64,000 nt of DNA from Sulfurimicrobium lacus (lineage in GTDB: Bacteria; Pseudomonadota; Gammaproteobacteria; Burkholderiales; Sulfuricellaceae): contig NZ_AP022853.1 of the NCBI RefSeq assembly GCF_011764585.1, positions 2,029,501-2,093,500 on the forward strand, read 5' to 3'. This document shows positions 31,201 to 54,349 of this stretch, piece after piece; the stretch's first letter is position 1, and each line of letters opens with the position of its first letter. Made by a program: the position numbers and the translations under genes. Below the pieces are notes generated by a model that was not told where the DNA came from, did no database searches, and worked only from the letters and a program-made list of their open reading frames with translations.

Positions 31201-31386
31201 ATTCAGAAGCCTTTGGCGATCGTGGTGATCGGCGGACTGGTGACATCCACCTTGCTGACCCTGATATTGTTGCCTATGTTTTACCAGCGCTTTGCTATTA
31301 ACGAAAGTCGCGTAGCGACACCCCGTCCCCCTCGCCCGCCTGTGGGAGAGGGCAGGGGTGAGGGCGAAATAAGGAATAAATCATGA
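28243..31386 (+). CDS. Heavy-metal RND efflux pump (CzcA family)
   Basis: The product is 1047 residues from ATG 28243. It begins with TM1 after MLARVIEFALTQR, has the porter domains and the TM4 signature GGLAIAIGMLVDAAVVVVEN near residue 395, and a second membrane half from about residue 860. This is the HME branch that exports metal cations by proton antiport; the TM4 motif differs from the CusA-type copper motif of the second pump here, so a divalent cation is more likely but unproven. The last 25 residues (after NESRVATPRPP) are encoded by a repeat element and are not part of the family. Confidence 0.9.
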   Translation: MLARVIEFALTQRLLMVLLTLLLIGGGGYALKNLPIDAFPDVSSTQVKIIIKAPGMTPEEVEARIAAPIEVELLGIPNKKMLRSVSKYALTDITLDFEDGTDIYWARNQVGERLANVMKDLPPNISGGMAPITTPLGEMLMFTIEGGDLSLAERRSLLDWVIRPALRTLPGVADVNSLGGLVRSFEVVPDNAALQARGISQDQLQRALEANNRNDGAGRLGDGEEVLLVRAEGAIKTLDDVRAIVISAKDGMTVRVGDVATVRIGALTRYGTVTKDGKGEAVEGLVLGLRGANAQKVVDGVHAKLKELAPMLPKGVTTQIFYDRGNLVERAVGTVTKALMEAIVLVVILLLLFLGNLRAALVVAAVLPLAALITFILMSWFGLSANLMSLGGLAIAIGMLVDAAVVVVENIVSHLAHDNTVKKLPYLHVVYRAVREVAAPVLAGILVIIVVFLPLLTLQGLEGKLFIPVALTIVFALAGSLLLSLTIIPVLSSFFLKQASHDDPWLVRKSLQVYEPSLRWALVNQRKVVVTALVGIVLTGAVYTQIGKSFMPTMDEGDLIIGVEKLPSISLQDSAALDLRLQKEIMARVPEVKGVVARVGSDELGLDPMGLNQTDTFLILKPRNEWRKPDKEWLMDQLRVVLKDFPGIAYSFTQPIDMRVSEMIIGVRGDVAVKLFGTDLDTLNSLSARIETLLKGVKGSEDVYRVMNDGVQYLKVEIDRLAAGRMGLSVDEIENALRAQLEGVTVGTVLEGNRRTPVLLRGADELRLSPSRFAEIRLTMANGQSVPLSAVAQLKRVGGPVKIDRENASRYVVVQANVRGRDLVGFVEEAKQAVAKQIPMPSGYSTVWGGQFENQQRAAARLAIVVPVALGLIYMLLFSTFGSLRQAALVFANIPFALIGGVFALWISGEYLSVPASVGFIALLGIAVLNGVVMVSYFNQLRAQGMSLAEVVVEGAKRRLRPVMMTAGITAFGLVPLLFASGPGSEIQKPLAIVVIGGLVTSTLLTLILLPMFYQRFAINESRVATPRPPRPPVGEGRGEGEIRNKS
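31318..31368. repeat. G/C-skewed palindromic repeat fused to the pump 3' end
   Basis: A C-rich half (CCCTCGCCC) and a G-rich half (GGGAGAGGG) flank GCCTGT, followed by CAGGGGTGAGGGCG. The architecture, a palindrome followed by a purine-rich tail, is like the repeats found in the cus operon of this window but the sequence class differs. It encodes the terminal PRPPRPPVGEGRGEGE of the CzcA-like protein. Confidence 0.65.
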
Positions 31387-48820: not shown

Positions 48821-49306
48821 TTACAAGTTCCCCTTTGCTGCATCCTGAGTAAGGCCCGTTGTGCCCATGTTTTGTTCCTGTGCCACGTCGCTTTGCCATT
48901 GCATATAAATTGCATCCGACCACAGCGAGGTAATCCAGGTCACCACGGCATCGAGTTCCTGCTCGCTCAGCTTGCCTTGCCAGGGCGGCATGTTGCCGCG
49001 TCCGGCGGGGCTGCCCTGGAGGATGAACTGTTTCATCTGGCGGCCGGTCAGGCGCCATGCGCGGCCGTTGTCATCCAGCGGCGGCGGCAGGAGCTTGCCG
49101 TCCGGCCCCGGATTCTGCCAGCCGGGCTTTGCTTCGCCGGTGTAGCCATGGCACACGGCGCAGTTTTTCTGGAACACCCTTTCGCCCAGCGCCAGCGCGT
49201 TCATGTCGTACTGACGCGATCCTTTGCGCTGATTCTGCGGTTTGTCGTCGCTGCAGCCCGCGAGTAGCGCGGCACACAGCAGCGCAGCGAAGATTTTTTC
49301 TTTCAT
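48821..49306 (-). CDS. Lipoprotein monoheme cytochrome c in the cus operon
   Basis: The product is 161 residues from ATG 49306, which overlaps the cusA stop by 4 nt. It has a lipobox (LLAGC, Cys near residue 18), one heme site CAVCHG near residue 50, and a Met in GRGNMPPWQGKLSEQE as the likely sixth ligand. It should be membrane-anchored in the periplasm. Translational coupling to a copper pump is notable: it may pass electrons to, or protect against, copper; that is inference. Confidence 0.85.
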   Translation of the reverse strand: MKEKIFAALLCAALLAGCSDDKPQNQRKGSRQYDMNALALGERVFQKNCAVCHGYTGEAKPGWQNPGPDGKLLPPPLDDNGRAWRLTGRQMKQFILQGSPAGRGNMPPWQGKLSEQELDAVVTWITSLWSDAIYMQWQSDVAQEQNMGTTGLTQDAAKGNL

Positions 49307-52300
49307 TTCATTTTCCTTTCGAACAGCGACCATTCCTTGACCAGCGCATAGAGCGCCGGAATCACGACCAAGGTCAGAAGCGTGGAAGACAGCATGCCGC
49401 CCACCATCGGCGCGGCGATGCGCCTCATCACCTCGGACCCGGTGCCGCTGCTCCACATGATCGGCAGCAGGCCGGCCATGATCGCCACCACGGTCATCAT
49501 CTTGGGACGTACTCGCTCGACCGCACCCTCCATCACCGCGGCGTAAAGGTCGGACGGCGCCAACTGCCTGCCCTCGGCGGCCCGTCTGGCCTTGATTTCG
49601 TCGAGTGCGCGGTCGAGGTAGATCAGCATCACCACGCCGGTCTCCGCCGCGACGCCGGCAAGCGCGATGAATCCGACCGCAACGGCAACGCTCAGGTTAT
49701 ATCCCAGCCACCACATCAGCCACACCCCGCCGACCAGCGCGAACGGCACCGACAGCATCACGATCAGGGTTTCGGTGAGACGCCGGAAATTGAGGTAAAG
49801 CAGCAGAAAAATGATCGCCATCGTCACCGGAATGACGATTTTCATTTTCTCCTTGGCCCGCTCCATGTACTCGAACTGGCCGCTCCAGGTGGCGTAGTAG
49901 CCGGGCGGGAACTTCACCTTGGCGCGCACCGCCTGCTGCGCGTCGTGCACGTAGCCGCCGATGTCACGGTCGCGGATGTCGACGTAGATGTAGGCCGAGA
50001 GCAGGGCGTTTTCGGTGCGGATGGCGGGGGCGCCGCGGGCGATTTCGATCCGGGCGAGCTGGCCCAGCGGCACCATCGCCGCTTGTCCGCCCATTTCGCT
50101 GTTCACCGGGACCAGTACCTGCGTGGCGATCATCTGCGGCGTGCTGCGCAGATCGCGCGGATACCGCACGCTGACGCCGAAACGCTCGCGCCCTTCCACC
50201 ATGGTGGTGACCATCTCGCCGCCGAGCGCCGTGGCGATCACGTCCTGCAGTTCGCCCACGGTCACGCCGTAGCGCGCCAGCTGCGTGCGTTCGGGTTCGA
50301 TGTTGAGATAGAAGCCGCCGGTGAGGCGTTCGGCGTAGGCGCTGCTGGTGCCTGGCACCCCCTTCACCGCCGCCTCGATTTCCTCGGCCAGTTTTTCCAT
50401 CTCTTCCAGGTTCTTGCCGAACACCTTGATGCCGACGGGGGTGCGGATGCCGGTGGAGAGCATGTCGATGCGCGCCTTGATCGGCATGGTCCAGGAGTTG
50501 GCGATGCCGGGCAGGCGCAACGCCTGGTCGAGTTCCGCGATCAGCTTGTCGGTGGTCATGCCCGGACGCCATTCGCTTTGCGGCTTGAGGTTGATGATGG
50601 TCTCGAACATTTCCAGCGGCGCCGGGTCGGTGGCGGTGTTGGCGCGGCCCGCCTTGCCATAGACCGATTCCACTTCCGGGAAACTCTTGATGATCTTGTC
50701 CTGGGTCTGCAAGGTCTCCGCCGCCTTGGTGACCGACATGCCGGGCAGCGCGGTGGGCATGTAGAATAGGGTGCCTTCGTTGAGCGTGGGCATGAATTCG
50801 CTGCCGAGCCGCAGCGCGGGGTACACGCTGAGTGCCATGACCACCAGCGCGATGAGAAGGGTCAGCTTTCTCCAGCGCATCACCCAGGCGATCACCGGGC
50901 GATAAACCCAGATAAGGAAACGGTTCAGCGGATTTTTCCCCTCGGGCAGGATACGGCCGCGCACGAACAGCATCATCAGCACCGGCACCAGGGTCACCGA
51001 CAATAACGCCGCACCGGCCATGGCGAAGGTCTTGGTGTAGGCCAGCGGCGAGAATAGCCGGCCCTCCTGCGCCTCCAGCGTGAACACCGGCAGGAACGAG
51101 ACGGTGATGATCAACAGCGAGAAGAACAGCGCCGGGCCGACTTCCTTGCAGGCGGCTATTATTGCTTGGGCTCGTGCACTAATAGTTCCCTCCCCTTCAA
51201 GGGGAGGGTTAGGGTGGGGATGGGTGTCCAGGTCTGCTTCCCCCATCCCCCTCCCAGCCTCCCCCTTGAAGGGGGAGGAGTGGGGTGATTGCAGGCGTTC
51301 CAGGTGTTTGTGCGCGTTCTCGATCATGACGATGGCCGCGTCCACCATCGCCCCGATGGCGATGGCGATGCCGCCCAGGCTCATGATGTTGGAGTTCATG
51401 CCCAGCAGGCGCATGGCGATGAAGGCGATCAGCACGCCGACCGGCAGCATGATGATGGCCACCAGGGCGCTCCTCACGTGCAGCAGGAACAGCACGCACA
51501 CCAGGGCGACGATGGCGCTTTCCTCCAGCAGCGTGGTCTTGAGGTTGGCGATGGCGCGCAGGATAAGCCCGGAACGGTCGTACACCGATTCGATCTTGAC
51601 CCCTTCCGGCAGACCGCTGGCAAGCTCGGCGATCTTCTCCTTGACGTTGGCGATGACCTCCAGCGCGTTCTGCCCGTAGCGCGCCATGACGATGCCCGAC
51701 ACCACTTCGCCCTCGCCGTTGAGCTCGGTCAGGCCGCGTCGCTCGTCCGGGCCGAGTTCCACACGCGCGATGTCGCGCAGCAGCACCGGCACGCCTTTTT
51801 CGCTCTTGATCACCAGTTGTTCCAGGTCTCCCTTGTTGCGCAGGTAGCCCTTGCCGCGCACCATGAATTCGGTTTCGGCCATTTCGATCACGCGCCCGCC
51901 GACATCTCGGTTGGAGTCGCGGATTACCTGCGAGACACGGGAAAGCGGCACGCCGTAGGCCTGCAGCTTGCGCGGGTCGACCACCACCTGGTATTGCTGC
52001 ACGAAGCCCCCGATGCTGGCGACTTCCGAGACGCCCGGCGCCTTGGTCAACTGGTAGCGCAGAAACCAGTCCTGGATGGTGCGCAACTCCGCCAGCGACT
52101 TGTTTTTCGCCACCACCGCGTACTGGTACACCCAGCCCACCCCGGTGGCATCCGGCCCGAGCTGGGGCGAGACGCCCCGCGGCAGGCGGCCCGAAATAGA
52201 GGACAGATATTCCAGCACCCGCGAACGCGCCCAGTAGATGTCCGTCCCGTCCTCGAAAATCACGTAGACGAAGGATGCGCCGAAGAAGGAGAAGCCGCGC

Positions 52301-52545
52301 ACCACCTTCGATTTCGGCACCGACAGCATGGCCGTGGTGAGCGGGTAGGTGACCTGGTCTTCCACCACCTGCGGCGCCTGGCCGGAGTACTCGGTGTAGA
52401 TGATAACCTGTGCGTCCGAGAGGTCGGGCAGGGCATCGAGCGGCGTTTTGACGATGGCGTAAATGCCGCCGGCGACGATCGCGAGCGTGGCCAGCAGCAC
52501 CAGGAAAACGTTGCGCGCGGACCACTCGATTATTTTGCTGAGCAT
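49303..52545 (-). CDS. cusA: Copper/silver RND efflux pump CusA, with an in-frame repeat insertion
   Basis: The product is 1080 residues from ATG 52545 (GGAGGT ribosome binding site). It has TM1 after MLSKIIEWSARN, ARSRVLEYLSSISGRLP, the TM4 motif AIAIGAMVDAAIVMIEN near residue 405 that marks the Cu(I)/Ag(I) branch, and TM10-12 from about residue 890. It exports Cu(I)/Ag(I) from the periplasm or cytoplasm by proton antiport. It is about 30 residues longer than usual because a repeat element (51188-51279) encodes a Pro/Gly-rich insert in the loop after TM4 (ENAHKHLERLQSPHSS to GTISARAQ). Confidence 0.92.
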   Translation of the reverse strand: MLSKIIEWSARNVFLVLLATLAIVAGGIYAIVKTPLDALPDLSDAQVIIYTEYSGQAPQVVEDQVTYPLTTAMLSVPKSKVVRGFSFFGASFVYVIFEDGTDIYWARSRVLEYLSSISGRLPRGVSPQLGPDATGVGWVYQYAVVAKNKSLAELRTIQDWFLRYQLTKAPGVSEVASIGGFVQQYQVVVDPRKLQAYGVPLSRVSQVIRDSNRDVGGRVIEMAETEFMVRGKGYLRNKGDLEQLVIKSEKGVPVLLRDIARVELGPDERRGLTELNGEGEVVSGIVMARYGQNALEVIANVKEKIAELASGLPEGVKIESVYDRSGLILRAIANLKTTLLEESAIVALVCVLFLLHVRSALVAIIMLPVGVLIAFIAMRLLGMNSNIMSLGGIAIAIGAMVDAAIVMIENAHKHLERLQSPHSSPFKGEAGRGMGEADLDTHPHPNPPLEGEGTISARAQAIIAACKEVGPALFFSLLIITVSFLPVFTLEAQEGRLFSPLAYTKTFAMAGAALLSVTLVPVLMMLFVRGRILPEGKNPLNRFLIWVYRPVIAWVMRWRKLTLLIALVVMALSVYPALRLGSEFMPTLNEGTLFYMPTALPGMSVTKAAETLQTQDKIIKSFPEVESVYGKAGRANTATDPAPLEMFETIINLKPQSEWRPGMTTDKLIAELDQALRLPGIANSWTMPIKARIDMLSTGIRTPVGIKVFGKNLEEMEKLAEEIEAAVKGVPGTSSAYAERLTGGFYLNIEPERTQLARYGVTVGELQDVIATALGGEMVTTMVEGRERFGVSVRYPRDLRSTPQMIATQVLVPVNSEMGGQAAMVPLGQLARIEIARGAPAIRTENALLSAYIYVDIRDRDIGGYVHDAQQAVRAKVKFPPGYYATWSGQFEYMERAKEKMKIVIPVTMAIIFLLLYLNFRRLTETLIVMLSVPFALVGGVWLMWWLGYNLSVAVAVGFIALAGVAAETGVVMLIYLDRALDEIKARRAAEGRQLAPSDLYAAVMEGAVERVRPKMMTVVAIMAGLLPIMWSSGTGSEVMRRIAAPMVGGMLSSTLLTLVVIPALYALVKEWSLFERKMK
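51188..51279. repeat. Inverted pair of palindromic repeats inside cusA
   Basis: The left unit is the palindrome CCCTCCCCTT-C-AAGGGGAGGG (51188-51208) with the tail TTAGGGTGGGGATGGG (51209-51224). The right unit is inverted: palindrome CCTCCCCCTT-G-AAGGGGGAGG (51259-51279) preceded by the complement of GGGAGGGGGATGGG. About 16 bp separate the two. The pair keeps the cusA frame open and encodes SPFKGEAGRGMGE and HPHPNPPLEGEGT. Confidence 0.85.
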
Positions 52546-52546
52546 A

Positions 52547-52951
52547 CTATTTACCTCCGCCAGTTCCTTCCCCTTCAAGGGGAAGGTCAGGATGGGGATG
52601 GGGTTTAAGCGCGTGCCATATGGCGTCCATGACGGAATCCAACTCATTAAAAACCTGGTTGTTCCAGGATCGCACAACTTGAAAACCTGACTGAACAAGC
52701 TTTTCATCGCGGGTACGATCGTGCTCCGAGTCCATGTGCTGCCCACCGTCAATTTCAATGACCAGTCTTGCTTCAAGACAAACGAAATCCAGAATGAAAT
52801 CGCCAAACGGATGTTGACGCCTGAATTTGTGGCCATTGAGCTGACGACCGCGCAGCCGTTGCCACAGCCGCTGTTCAGCATCGGTCAGGTTGCGGCGAAG
52901 AGTTCGCTGCAGCTTGTTATCGAGTACGAAAGAGTTCGTTTGGCCTTTCAT
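52547..52951 (-). CDS. DUF559 (Vsr-like) endonuclease inserted between cusB and cusA
   Basis: The 134-residue protein has the DUF559 core: LRRNLTDAEQRLWQRLRGRQLNGHKFRRQ, then DFILDFVCLEARLVIEIDGGQH (acidic catalytic core of the Vsr/PD-(D/E)XK fold) and DEKLVQSGFQVVRSWNNQV. An AAGGAT ribosome binding site precedes ATG 52951. The last 20 residues (PHPHPDLPLEGEGTGGGK) are encoded by a palindromic repeat and by the cusA ribosome binding site; its TAG stop is 1 nt from the cusA start. The gene plus flanking inverted repeats forms a cassette. It may be a mobility or homing endonuclease; function unproven. Confidence 0.85.
   Translation of the reverse strand: MKGQTNSFVLDNKLQRTLRRNLTDAEQRLWQRLRGRQLNGHKFRRQHPFGDFILDFVCLEARLVIEIDGGQHMDSEHDRTRDEKLVQSGFQVVRSWNNQVFNELDSVMDAIWHALKPHPHPDLPLEGEGTGGGK
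52566..52603. repeat. Palindromic repeat, cusA-side flank of duf559
   Basis: Palindrome CCTTCCCCTT-C-AAGGGGAAGG (52566-52586) followed by TCAGGATGGGGATGGGG (52587-52603). It is the same class as the units inside cusA and is inverted relative to the copy at 52968-53003. Confidence 0.85.
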
Positions 52952-52967
52952 TTTTATCCTTTTTAAC

Positions 52968-53003
52968 CCATCCCCATCCTAGCCTTCCCCTTGAAGGGGA
53001 AGG
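52968..53003. repeat. Palindromic repeat, cusB-side flank of duf559
   Basis: CCCATCCCCATCCTAG (52968-52982 region) followed by the palindrome CCTTCCCCTT-G-AAGGGGAAGG (52983-53003). It is the reverse complement of the 52566-52603 copy with the palindrome arms identical, so the two bracket the DUF559 gene as terminal inverted repeats about 440 bp apart overall. Confidence 0.85.
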
Positions 53004-53032
53004 GACGATCGCTCTTCCTCCTTCAAGGAGCG

Positions 53033-54349
53033 TCAGTGTCCATTATGTTCGGGTGGTGCTGCAGGTTTGGCCTGGCTGCCGCTCATGCCGCTGAACGCGG
53101 CCTTGAGATTGCTTTCCGAGTCGATCAGGAAGTTGGCGGAAACCACCACTTTCTCGCTTTCGGTCAGGCCTTCCAGCACTTCCACGTAGTCGCCGCCCTG
53201 CATGCCGAGCTTTACCGGGCGGGGTTCGAAGCGGCCTGGCGCGAGTTCGACCAGCACGGTCTGGTTCTTGCCGCTGTAAATCACCGCCGAAGCCGGGACA
53301 GTGAGAACCTTTCCCCCGGCTGGCGTGGACAGTTCCACGTCGGCATACATGCCGGGTTTGAGCAGACCTCCGGGGTTCGCCAGCTCCAGCCGTACCGGGA
53401 CGGTACGCGTCTGCGGGTTGAGCGTCGGGTAGACGTAGCTGACCCGGGCGGAGAACGCCTTGCCCGGATAGGCGTTGAGCATCGCGCGTGCATTCTCGCC
53501 GGGCCGCACCAGTGCCAGATCCTGTTCGAACACGTCGGCGACGATCCATACCGATGACAGGTCGGCGATCTGGTACAGCACGTCGCCCGGCATGAAGCGC
53601 ATGCCCTGGACGGCTTTTTTCTCGATCACGATGCCGTTGACCGGCGCGCGGAAGGTGAGGGTGCGCCGGGCGTTGCCGCTTTTGCTCAGGTCCTGCAATT
53701 GTCCGGCGGATATGTCCCAGTTGTTGAGCCTTGCGAGGCTGGCTTCGGCGAGCTGCTTCATGCTTTCCTGCGCCTCCGGGGTGGCGTGGCGCAGGCTTGT
53801 TTCGCCTTGGCGGGCGATGAAGTATTCGTTCTGCGCCGATACCAGGTCGGGGCTGTAGACGTCCATCAGCGGCTGGCCGCGTTTGACTTCCTGGCCGGTG
53901 GTGTTGACGTAGAGCTTGTCGATCCAGCCTTCGAATTTCGGAGCGACGGTATGGCTCAGGCGTTCGTCGATTTCGATCCGGCCCACGGCGTGGACGCTGC
54001 GGGAGAGGCTGCGCAGCGTGGCGGCTTCGCTGCGCACGCCGAGCTGCTGGATTTTTTCGCTGCTGATCCTGACTTGTCTTGCCTGGCCGGGCTCGTTTGC
54101 TTCTTCTCCTTCATAAACCGGGATGTAATCCATCCCCATCTGGTCCTTTTTCGGCACCGGCGAGGTGTCGGGCAGGCCCATCGGATTGCGGTAGAACAAA
54201 ATCTTGCGCTCCCTAGTGGCCGGCTTGGCCGCGGATGGCGTTTGCGCCGTCGTCACAACCTGTCCGGCCCGCTGGCCACCGAGCCAGTAACCAGCTCCCA
54301 GCGCGGCCACCACGGCGGCGGCCAGGGCGAGTGCCATTGTCTTGTTCAT
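53033..54349 (-). CDS. cusB: Copper/silver efflux periplasmic adaptor CusB
   Basis: The 438-residue protein has an N-terminal signal anchor (residues 5-22), a heavy-metal-binding segment (YRNPMGLPDTSPVPKKDQMGMDYIPVYEGE near residues 53-83) typical of CusB, the barrel-sandwich domain, an alpha hairpin and beta-barrel (TLTFRAPVNGIVIEKKAVQGMRFMPGD). It ends in GSQAKPAAPPEHNGH with metal-binding histidines. Methionines in the segment hand Cu(I) to the pump. It overlaps the channel gene by 4 nt. The normal cusB-cusA junction is broken by the DUF559 cassette. Confidence 0.92.
   Translation of the reverse strand: MNKTMALALAAAVVAALGAGYWLGGQRAGQVVTTAQTPSAAKPATRERKILFYRNPMGLPDTSPVPKKDQMGMDYIPVYEGEEANEPGQARQVRISSEKIQQLGVRSEAATLRSLSRSVHAVGRIEIDERLSHTVAPKFEGWIDKLYVNTTGQEVKRGQPLMDVYSPDLVSAQNEYFIARQGETSLRHATPEAQESMKQLAEASLARLNNWDISAGQLQDLSKSGNARRTLTFRAPVNGIVIEKKAVQGMRFMPGDVLYQIADLSSVWIVADVFEQDLALVRPGENARAMLNAYPGKAFSARVSYVYPTLNPQTRTVPVRLELANPGGLLKPGMYADVELSTPAGGKVLTVPASAVIYSGKNQTVLVELAPGRFEPRPVKLGMQGGDYVEVLEGLTESEKVVVSANFLIDSESNLKAAFSGMSGSQAKPAAPPEHNGH

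Follow-up and report, generated by a model that had tools for sequence, protein, structure and literature searches.

DUF559 nuclease genes flanked by inverted triplex-type repeats, a putative mobile cassette

A DUF559 nuclease gene with an inverted pair of triplex-type repeats at its ends, noticed in a 64,000-nucleotide stretch of the Sulfurimicrobium lacus genome (the window, meaning that whole stretch), is a real and general arrangement and not one peculiar to the window. The reading favoured here, to which a probability of about 0.6 may be given, is that gene and repeats form a selfish cassette in which a nuclease gene is bounded by its cognate triplex-type repeats, an analogue of the REPIN/RAYT system built on an unrelated enzyme; binding, cleavage and spread by the nuclease are inferred. 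DUF559 seems a good candidate for the spreader of the repeats, because it is flanked by the inverted pair and because related enzymes tend to keep related repeats.

The cassette at the cusB-cusA junction

Features are given by position in the window:

31329..31364, plus strand: solo triplex-type repeat CCCTCGCCC..GGGAGAGGG..GGGTGAGGG of another stem class, the GGGAGAGGG class
49306..52545, minus strand: cusA (RND pump), start codon at 52545, host to a gene-less repeat pair
51188..51220, plus strand: left half of the gene-less pair in cusA, tail inward
51247..51279, minus strand: right half of the gene-less pair in cusA, tail inward
52547..52951, minus strand: DUF559 ORF of 134 aa, YcjD-like, predicted Vsr-fold nuclease
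52563..53006, no strand: whole cassette, bounded by the outer ends of the 40-nt inverted arms
52566..52598, plus strand: triplex-type repeat CCTTCCCCT-tca-AGGGGAAGG-tca-GGATGGGGA, tail facing the DUF559 gene
52971..53003, minus strand: triplex-type repeat CCTTCCCCT-tca-AGGGGAAGG-cta-GGATGGGGA, tail facing the DUF559 gene
53007..53032, no strand: bases between cassette and cusB, missing from the tight junctions of relatives
53033..54349, minus strand: cusB (membrane fusion protein), stop at 53033

The start of cusA and the stop of cusB lie 487 bp apart with the DUF559 ORF between them, and the C-terminal residues of that ORF are encoded by the adjoining repeat. Its product matches Pfam PF04480 at E 6.7e-36 and 122.9 bits, the curated cut-off being 20.6. 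The inverted arms (52563-52602 and 52967-53006) are 40 nt long, 93% complementary and carry the same 21-bp palindrome in inverted orientation, and bases 53007..53032 belong to a weak inverted repeat (75%). The gene-less pair at 51188-51279 is translated in frame within cusA. By-eye inspection of the junction in 16 family relatives with a cusA match found it to be no longer than about 15 bp in 13, among them G163, the cusA DNA of which is 95% identical to that of the window; elsewhere it holds DUF559 (G161), a gene-less repeat pair (G062) or a different insert (G157).

This anatomy is shown, and with it what the first-pass annotation had claimed of the locus has held, namely that the junction is split by about 490 bp, that the inserted gene is for a Vsr-like DUF559 nuclease (as to its Pfam match and predicted fold), that inverted palindrome-plus-tail copies with identical 21-bp palindromes stand at its ends, and that the pair inside cusA is of the same repeat class. 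The parallel it drew to REP and RAYT held in plan, in that there are dispersed inverted pairs and a gene flanked by a matching pair.

Within the genome of 3,826,324 bases the palindrome is found in 23 places at up to three mismatches, as against 1 for a reversed-pattern control. A motif scan gave six sites in the window, one of them marginal, and none in one shuffled window; Rfam gave no match above gathering score over 51000-53200. All three DUF559 genes of the genome have the order palindrome-tail, gene, tail-palindrome, each with its own stem class. The covariance model used for genome counts (R2) matched this genome 79 times. Among 59 of these matches there are six gene-less pairs spaced 59-85 bp and, below 1 kb, a single inverted pair set wider apart, at 405 bp, which encloses the DUF559 gene.

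A hairpin with a mirrored purine tail

The repeats run from a pyrimidine stem through a loop to a purine stem, a short loop and a purine tail, the tail mirroring the purine stem, with A faced by T or A. The window repeats meet this criterion (Y-stem, loop, R-stem, loop, mirrored purine tail) for the triplex-type motifs (TM) and PIT elements, and the first-pass annotation needs correction here since the build is that of an intrastrand-triplex motif already published. Each repeat can fold on paper as a hairpin plus third strand, a purine-motif intrastrand triplex, which is an inference from sequence alone; triplex formation in vitro has been reported for TM-ECO and not for the stem class of the window (PMC4666352). 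Holder et al. 2015 listed 23 TM in E. coli MG1655 with five inverted pairs, found them not to be associated with transposons, phages or plasmids, and described an increased TM variability the mechanism of which "remains unclear" (PMC4666352). No word starting 'endonuclease', 'DUF' or 'ycjD' occurs in the main text of that paper.

The mirror rule was examined on 200 hairpins selected blind to their tails. Their own tails agreed with the mirror at 0.724 of positions, 87 of the 200 perfectly, and exceeded all of 1000 shuffles of the tails (0.653, sd 0.006, maximum 0.669). The rule is still obeyed in several alphaproteobacterial loci where the second loop is itself a small hairpin, a class lost by an early scan restricted to short second loops and now superseded. 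A first covariance model, R1, was discarded for poor structure. The pairing of type A with type B in PMC4666352 gave rise to the idea of two ends distinguishable by their second-loop letters, which was rejected, identical loops being found in 4 of 51 mates against 7.4 expected, a difference that is not significant.

Flanking repeats at DUF559 loci

PF04480 is present in 69 of 150 genomes of the order. The DUF559 loci taken from the order number 62 (29, 20 and 10 new, with the three of the window genome), going down to about 8e-19 and leaving out one partial match; weaker PF04480 matches, many of them pieces of very long frames, were excluded. Other genomes contributed 80 named loci, the best 80 of at least 583 confirmed, for a total of 142, and 131 of these had full flanks once 11 close to contig ends were dropped.

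At a score of 15 an inward-facing TM stands on the left of 87 of the 131 loci, on the right of 90, on either side of 112 and on both sides of 65, as against outward-facing TM at 43 (left) and 46 (right), so that orientation toward the gene outnumbers that away from it by about 2:1. Sorted by DUF559 score, inward TM are found at 112 of 122 loci of at least 110 bits and at none of the nine below. Displaced flanks of the same loci hold a TM of any orientation in 5 of 123, and none of 20 Y1-transposase loci in 15 TM-bearing genomes has a TM within 900 bp. The association is shown with certain reservations as to how the counts were made: the Y1 loci were hand-picked from a list and not random, the cut-offs on DUF559 score, 98 bits with one model and 110 bits with another, were chosen once the lists had been seen, and the DUF559 loci are mutually related and so not independent in the counts. 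An outward-facing repeat lies within 350 bp at 68 of the 131 loci, and so many DUF559 genes sit beside or between doublets.

An inward TM at a score of 14 stands on one side or both at 73 of the 80 named loci: 54 of 57 in Pseudomonadota, 7/7 in Thermodesulfobacteriota, 4/5 in Chloroflexota, 3/3 in Myxococcota, 2/2 in Nitrospirota, and one each in Kapabacteria, Planctomycetota and Rokuibacteriota. None was found at that score in Melainabacteria (0/2) or at one unplaced locus (0/1). By eye, DUF559 copies on Picosynechococcus and Deinococcus plasmids have such repeats too. On phages no DUF559 match was found at 1e-8.

As a separate observation, three loci (L148, L153 and L093, two of them from Melainabacteria and one unplaced) have DUF559 in a long frame with no TM reaching score, and possibly represent a domesticated form.

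Repeat class and nuclease lineage

Of 74 left-right pairs of mates, 43 agree exactly in the purine stem, where 5000 shuffles gave a mean of 6.2 and a maximum of 15. There are several stem classes, which the first-pass annotation had not seen, and they go with DUF559 lineages. On a tree of 169 DUF559 domains, 139 of them class-labelled after four of class 'other' were dropped, the number of changes in stem class is 39, where 200 shuffles gave 69.7 (sd 3.1, minimum 60), and the nearest relative that is not near-identical shares the class in 90 of 139 cases against 40 by chance in shuffles. Nuclease and repeat class match above chance, and this is shown, although shared species ancestry could possibly have inflated the match. 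In eight genomes with more than one class, the nearest foreign relative had the gene's own class in 12 of 18 comparisons, the class of a genome-mate in none and a third class in six; L001 and L002, both from the window genome, are among these six, and the relative of L002 in G161 has one repeat from each of two classes. In a first flank comparison the mean score was 19.4 for own flanks and 10.9 for crossed ones, and at no more than 24 of the 62 loci did the own flank outscore every one of 20 crossed flanks, since the repeats resemble each other between loci.

TM-rich genomes, DUF559 and Y1 transposases

A genome was called TM-rich at 10 or more matches to R2, and 150 genomes were classed in this way. 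The R2 counts plateau near 46-50 per genome because 46 candidates were scored per genome, and R2 does not cover the AAAGGGGG class. TM-rich are 34 of 42 genomes with a high-scoring DUF559 (at least 98 bits) and 13 of 108 without (Fisher 1e-15); a low-scoring DUF559 has no effect (4/27 against 9/81). Conversely, a high-scoring DUF559 is missing from 13 of the 47 TM-rich genomes, and of the 42 genomes that have one, 8 are not TM-rich by R2. Y1 transposases also go with TM-rich status, at 40 of 95 genomes against 7 of 55 without them. The DUF559 effect is seen among Y1-bearing genomes (30/35 against 10/60) and Y1-free ones (4/7 against 3/48), and the Y1 effect given DUF559 is not significant (p 0.11 and 0.14). 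A Y1 or RAYT enzyme as the mover is therefore supported neither by genome association nor by flanks (0/20 loci).

The first-pass annotation had offered as its refutation DUF559 genes elsewhere lacking the repeats, or repeats equally abundant without the gene; the high-scoring loci are flanked and the low-scoring ones are not, and abundance is unequal. The mobilising role that it held plausible is supported and yet remains inferred.

One genome (G054, a single contig with 35 TM and no high-scoring DUF559) has among 18 full matches eight neighbouring, near-uniform gene-less pairs 66-78 bp apart, possibly through recent spread without a resident enzyme or through loss of the enzyme.

Insertions inside host proteins

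Some cassettes, and this is a further correction, sit in frame within host proteins. At 34 of 169 loci the open frame holding DUF559 is a long one, extending more than 200 aa ahead of it or 120 beyond it; some of these frames merely read a neighbour out of frame, as was judged by eye for L028 and L049. In ten chosen frames Pfam places DUF559 between or beside host domains, the hosts being YgiQ, AsnB, MetG (two), MnmG, HsdM, a class I tRNA synthetase, MetH, PriA and MmeI. These ten fused frames have no intein domain at 1e-6, only host domains, DUF559 and its relative PF18741. At the PriA locus (L148) Pfam places DUF559 inside PriA, with no TM reaching score.

The CusA linker that carries the gene-less pair of 51188-51279 in the window varies among 17 family genomes, being 57 nt in nine, 66-72 nt in three and longer by 81 to 120 nt, always a multiple of three, in five including that of the window; by eye, the longer linkers hold repeats of several classes. 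One YgiQ linker likewise, by eye, is occupied by DUF559 in two genomes and by gene-less inserts in others, while several have nothing there. On the DUF559 tree, copies sitting in the same host gene fall together, with support of 90-99 for ygiQ (three genomes, two families), asnB (two families) and hsdM and of only 14 for metG; the host of L112 was assigned by eye via its duplicate L044. One criterion for a homing element, patchy occupation of the same site by the same lineage, is met (for ygiQ in detail, and for asnB, hsdM and weakly metG by the tree); another, residence within an intron or intein, is not met, inteins having been sought in the ten fused frames and introns only by Rfam over 51000-53200. 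Patchy and in-frame sites are shown. TM-to-TM length over 65 cassettes falls 16, 29 and 20 modulo three, and because a multiple of three is not kept, the in-frame cases would reflect selection after insertion, which is an inference.

It may be added that in L054, L055 and L062, from three families, DUF559 lies between the catalytic part of MetG and its C-terminal tRNA-binding domain.

ycjD and its repeats in E. coli

In E. coli, tblastn detected DUF559 in two chromosomes, and the gene, which lies between sapF and fabI, is ycjD. It occurs in 3366 places in 3365 of 5426 complete E. coli genomes, MG1655 included, and the sapF-ycjD-fabI stretch is matched over at least 80% in one place in 3333 genomes. 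No fresh DUF559 insertion was caught in the E. coli genomes, where ycjD is stable, and a clean empty ycjD site was not obtained there; three genomes examined that lack ycjD (L207-L209, L211) carry efflux genes after sapF, as likewise reported for the ycjD position in PMC12817139.

On the right side of ycjD strain KE47 has an inward TM and an outer TM, and in H240 the inner TM has decayed while the outer is intact; MG1655 is in the same state as H240, as its records are 99.8% identical. Letter for letter the outer TM equals TM-ECO No. 9, and Nos. 16, 19 and 22 have that same sequence (PMC4666352). No such TM was seen by eye on the left side. Between hrpB and mrcB, MG1655 and an O157 strain have a full gene-less pair, two strains a collapsed single hairpin, and NU14 is repeat-free and 102 bp shorter, with no target duplication visible on comparing these forms.

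The enzyme

An AlphaFold2 model of the window DUF559 (mean pLDDT 80.4) has as structural matches NGO0050 (3hrl, E 7.1e-8) and the homing endonuclease I-Bth0305I (3r3p, 2.3e-4), with Vsr (1cw0) weaker at E 0.041 and PvuRts1I and Toxoplasma mitoribosome chains ranking between, and by this prediction it meets the criterion of a Vsr-like PD-(D/E)XK fold. Apart from 3hrl and 3r3p, PDB sequence matches began at E 0.12 and were no better than chance. YcjD had earlier been placed among PD-(D/E)XK nucleases and linked to Vsr (PMC1189080), and in Caulobacter the DNA damage response upon methyltransferase loss needs the DUF559 protein VsrA (PMC12907096). Seven DUF559 pairs have dN of 0.03-0.32 with synonymous sites far more changed, and dN/dS is 0.02-0.15 in the six with finite dS; the nuclease is under purifying selection.

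The open-licence PMC literature searched held no paper with both 'DUF559' and 'inverted repeat', and no link of DUF559, ycjD or Vsr-like nucleases to these repeats was found in it; absence elsewhere is not shown.

A possible mechanism and its rivals

In the favoured reading the DUF559 gene and its two repeats would be one selfish cassette of about 450 bp, palindrome-tail, nuclease, tail-palindrome, with the repeats as its ends. The nuclease would recognise the repeat class of its own cassette and cut or nick at the repeats or at the landing site, and host repair would then copy the cassette into the new place. Internal deletion would leave gene-less inverted pairs that may then travel in trans, in the way that RAYTs move REPINs. 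Copies would survive between genes or in frame in the linkers of host proteins, and within linkers one nuclease lineage would recur at the same site in distant species in the manner of homing nucleases. That the nuclease binds or cuts its own repeat, that spread results and that a repair-copy step occurs are inferred, there being no binding or cleavage data.

No target-site duplication is visible at the two sites, cusB-cusA and E. coli hrpB-mrcB. DDE-type transposition, as of an insertion sequence or MITE, was rejected on that ground, and a classical transposase is disfavoured by the absence both of target duplication and of a strand-transfer domain.

Against the favoured reading stands, first, that it asks a nuclease to act alone without strand-transfer activity. 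The want of a visible target duplication at those two sites, the 13 of 47 TM-rich genomes lacking a high-scoring DUF559, the 6 of 18 third-class comparisons and the failure to catch a fresh insertion also count against it. Quite what the moving unit is cannot be fixed, because gene-less pairs exist in both tails-inward and tails-outward forms and 68 of 131 loci have an outward motif.

An unlikely first rival is that another enzyme, RAYT/IS200-type or unknown, spreads the repeats and that DUF559 is a passenger caught between two copies. The same 13 of 47 genomes favour it, as does the excess of TM-rich genomes among those with Y1 (40/95 against 7/55). The Y1 effect is however not significant given DUF559 (p 0.11, 0.14), no Y1 locus of 20 has a TM within 900 bp, and repeat class tracks DUF559 lineage above chance.

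Similarly improbable is an immobile system in which DUF559 is a repair nuclease dealing with triplexes or hairpins that cause trouble at the repeats, and in which the copies on either side serve as its regulatory or control sites. The Vsr-like fold, purifying selection, the stability of ycjD in E. coli and the VsrA-dependent damage response in Caulobacter (PMC12907096) speak for it. Patchy distribution at the same site in close relatives, together with in-frame placement in unrelated hosts, suggests a mobile unit instead.

Pure homing, with one fixed empty site cut per lineage and repeats as by-products of repair, is very hard to sustain: same-host DUF559s do cluster and the nearest characterised fold is that of a homing endonuclease, but the repeats are dispersed within one genome (the 79 model matches of the window genome) and their classes go with DUF559 lineages. 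Chance or composition, with G-rich palindromes common near any intergenic gene, has in its favour that the repeats are G/C-rich and is all but ruled out by displaced flanks (5/123), Y1 loci (0/20), one shuffled window (0) and the roughly 2:1 orientation to the gene.

If the cassette reading holds, a non-HUH nuclease fold joins the enzymes that spread short palindromes. A candidate role is proposed for the widespread DUF559/ycjD family and, with it, a candidate enzyme for the bacterial triplex repeats; either proposal can be tested in E. coli K-12, which has ycjD and 23 listed repeats. There is also a warning for annotation, as repeat-encoded peptides and whole nuclease domains occur in frame within conserved proteins. 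A bolder reading, towards which the balance of doubt is slightly unfavourable, is of a new class of mobile element in several bacterial phyla, in which a Vsr-fold nuclease would act on its own intrastrand-triplex termini, spread gene-less triplex pairs in trans and home in frame into the linkers of conserved proteins without splicing; if true it would account for the triplex repeats in E. coli, where ycjD would be the enzyme, and in more than 260 genomes.

Comparison with known systems

Rickettsia palindromic elements are palindromic insertions translated in frame inside host proteins, and are not known to have a nuclease partner; their likeness to the cassettes, by analogy and without sequence comparison, is in such in-frame insertion. 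I-Bth0305I (3r3p) is alike in being the nearest characterised fold and in same-site recurrence in conserved genes, whereas the DUF559 cassettes have no intein domain in the ten fused frames, stay open in the host frame and end in dispersed repeats. The published YcjD/DUF559 proteins (PMC1189080; NGO0050, 3hrl; VsrA, PMC12907096) are of the same family as the window DUF559 and are described only as nuclease or repair enzyme, flanking repeats being undescribed in the sections bearing on it.

REP/REPIN-RAYT systems share short dispersed palindromes, inverted pairs of one class and a gene flanked by a matching pair, RAYT (TnpA-REP) genes being flanked by a matching REP pair. Of the criteria for such a system, dispersed inverted pairs are met and a Y1 gene beside the repeats is not, the gene being DUF559; in place of the HUH (Y1) transposase there is a Vsr-type PD-(D/E)XK nuclease, and here the tail mirrors the stem. 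Closest in the repeats themselves are TM/TM-ECO (PMC4666352) and the PIT elements of Hoyne and Maher, cited therein, with a like repeat architecture, inverted pairs and variable loci. PIT elements share the triplex-type architecture with TM. The repeats here differ from TM/TM-ECO in comprising several stem classes, some with a longer second loop, and whereas TM/TM-ECO was published as a motif of DNA structure, the sections bearing on it naming no enzyme, here the motif is tied to a nuclease family.
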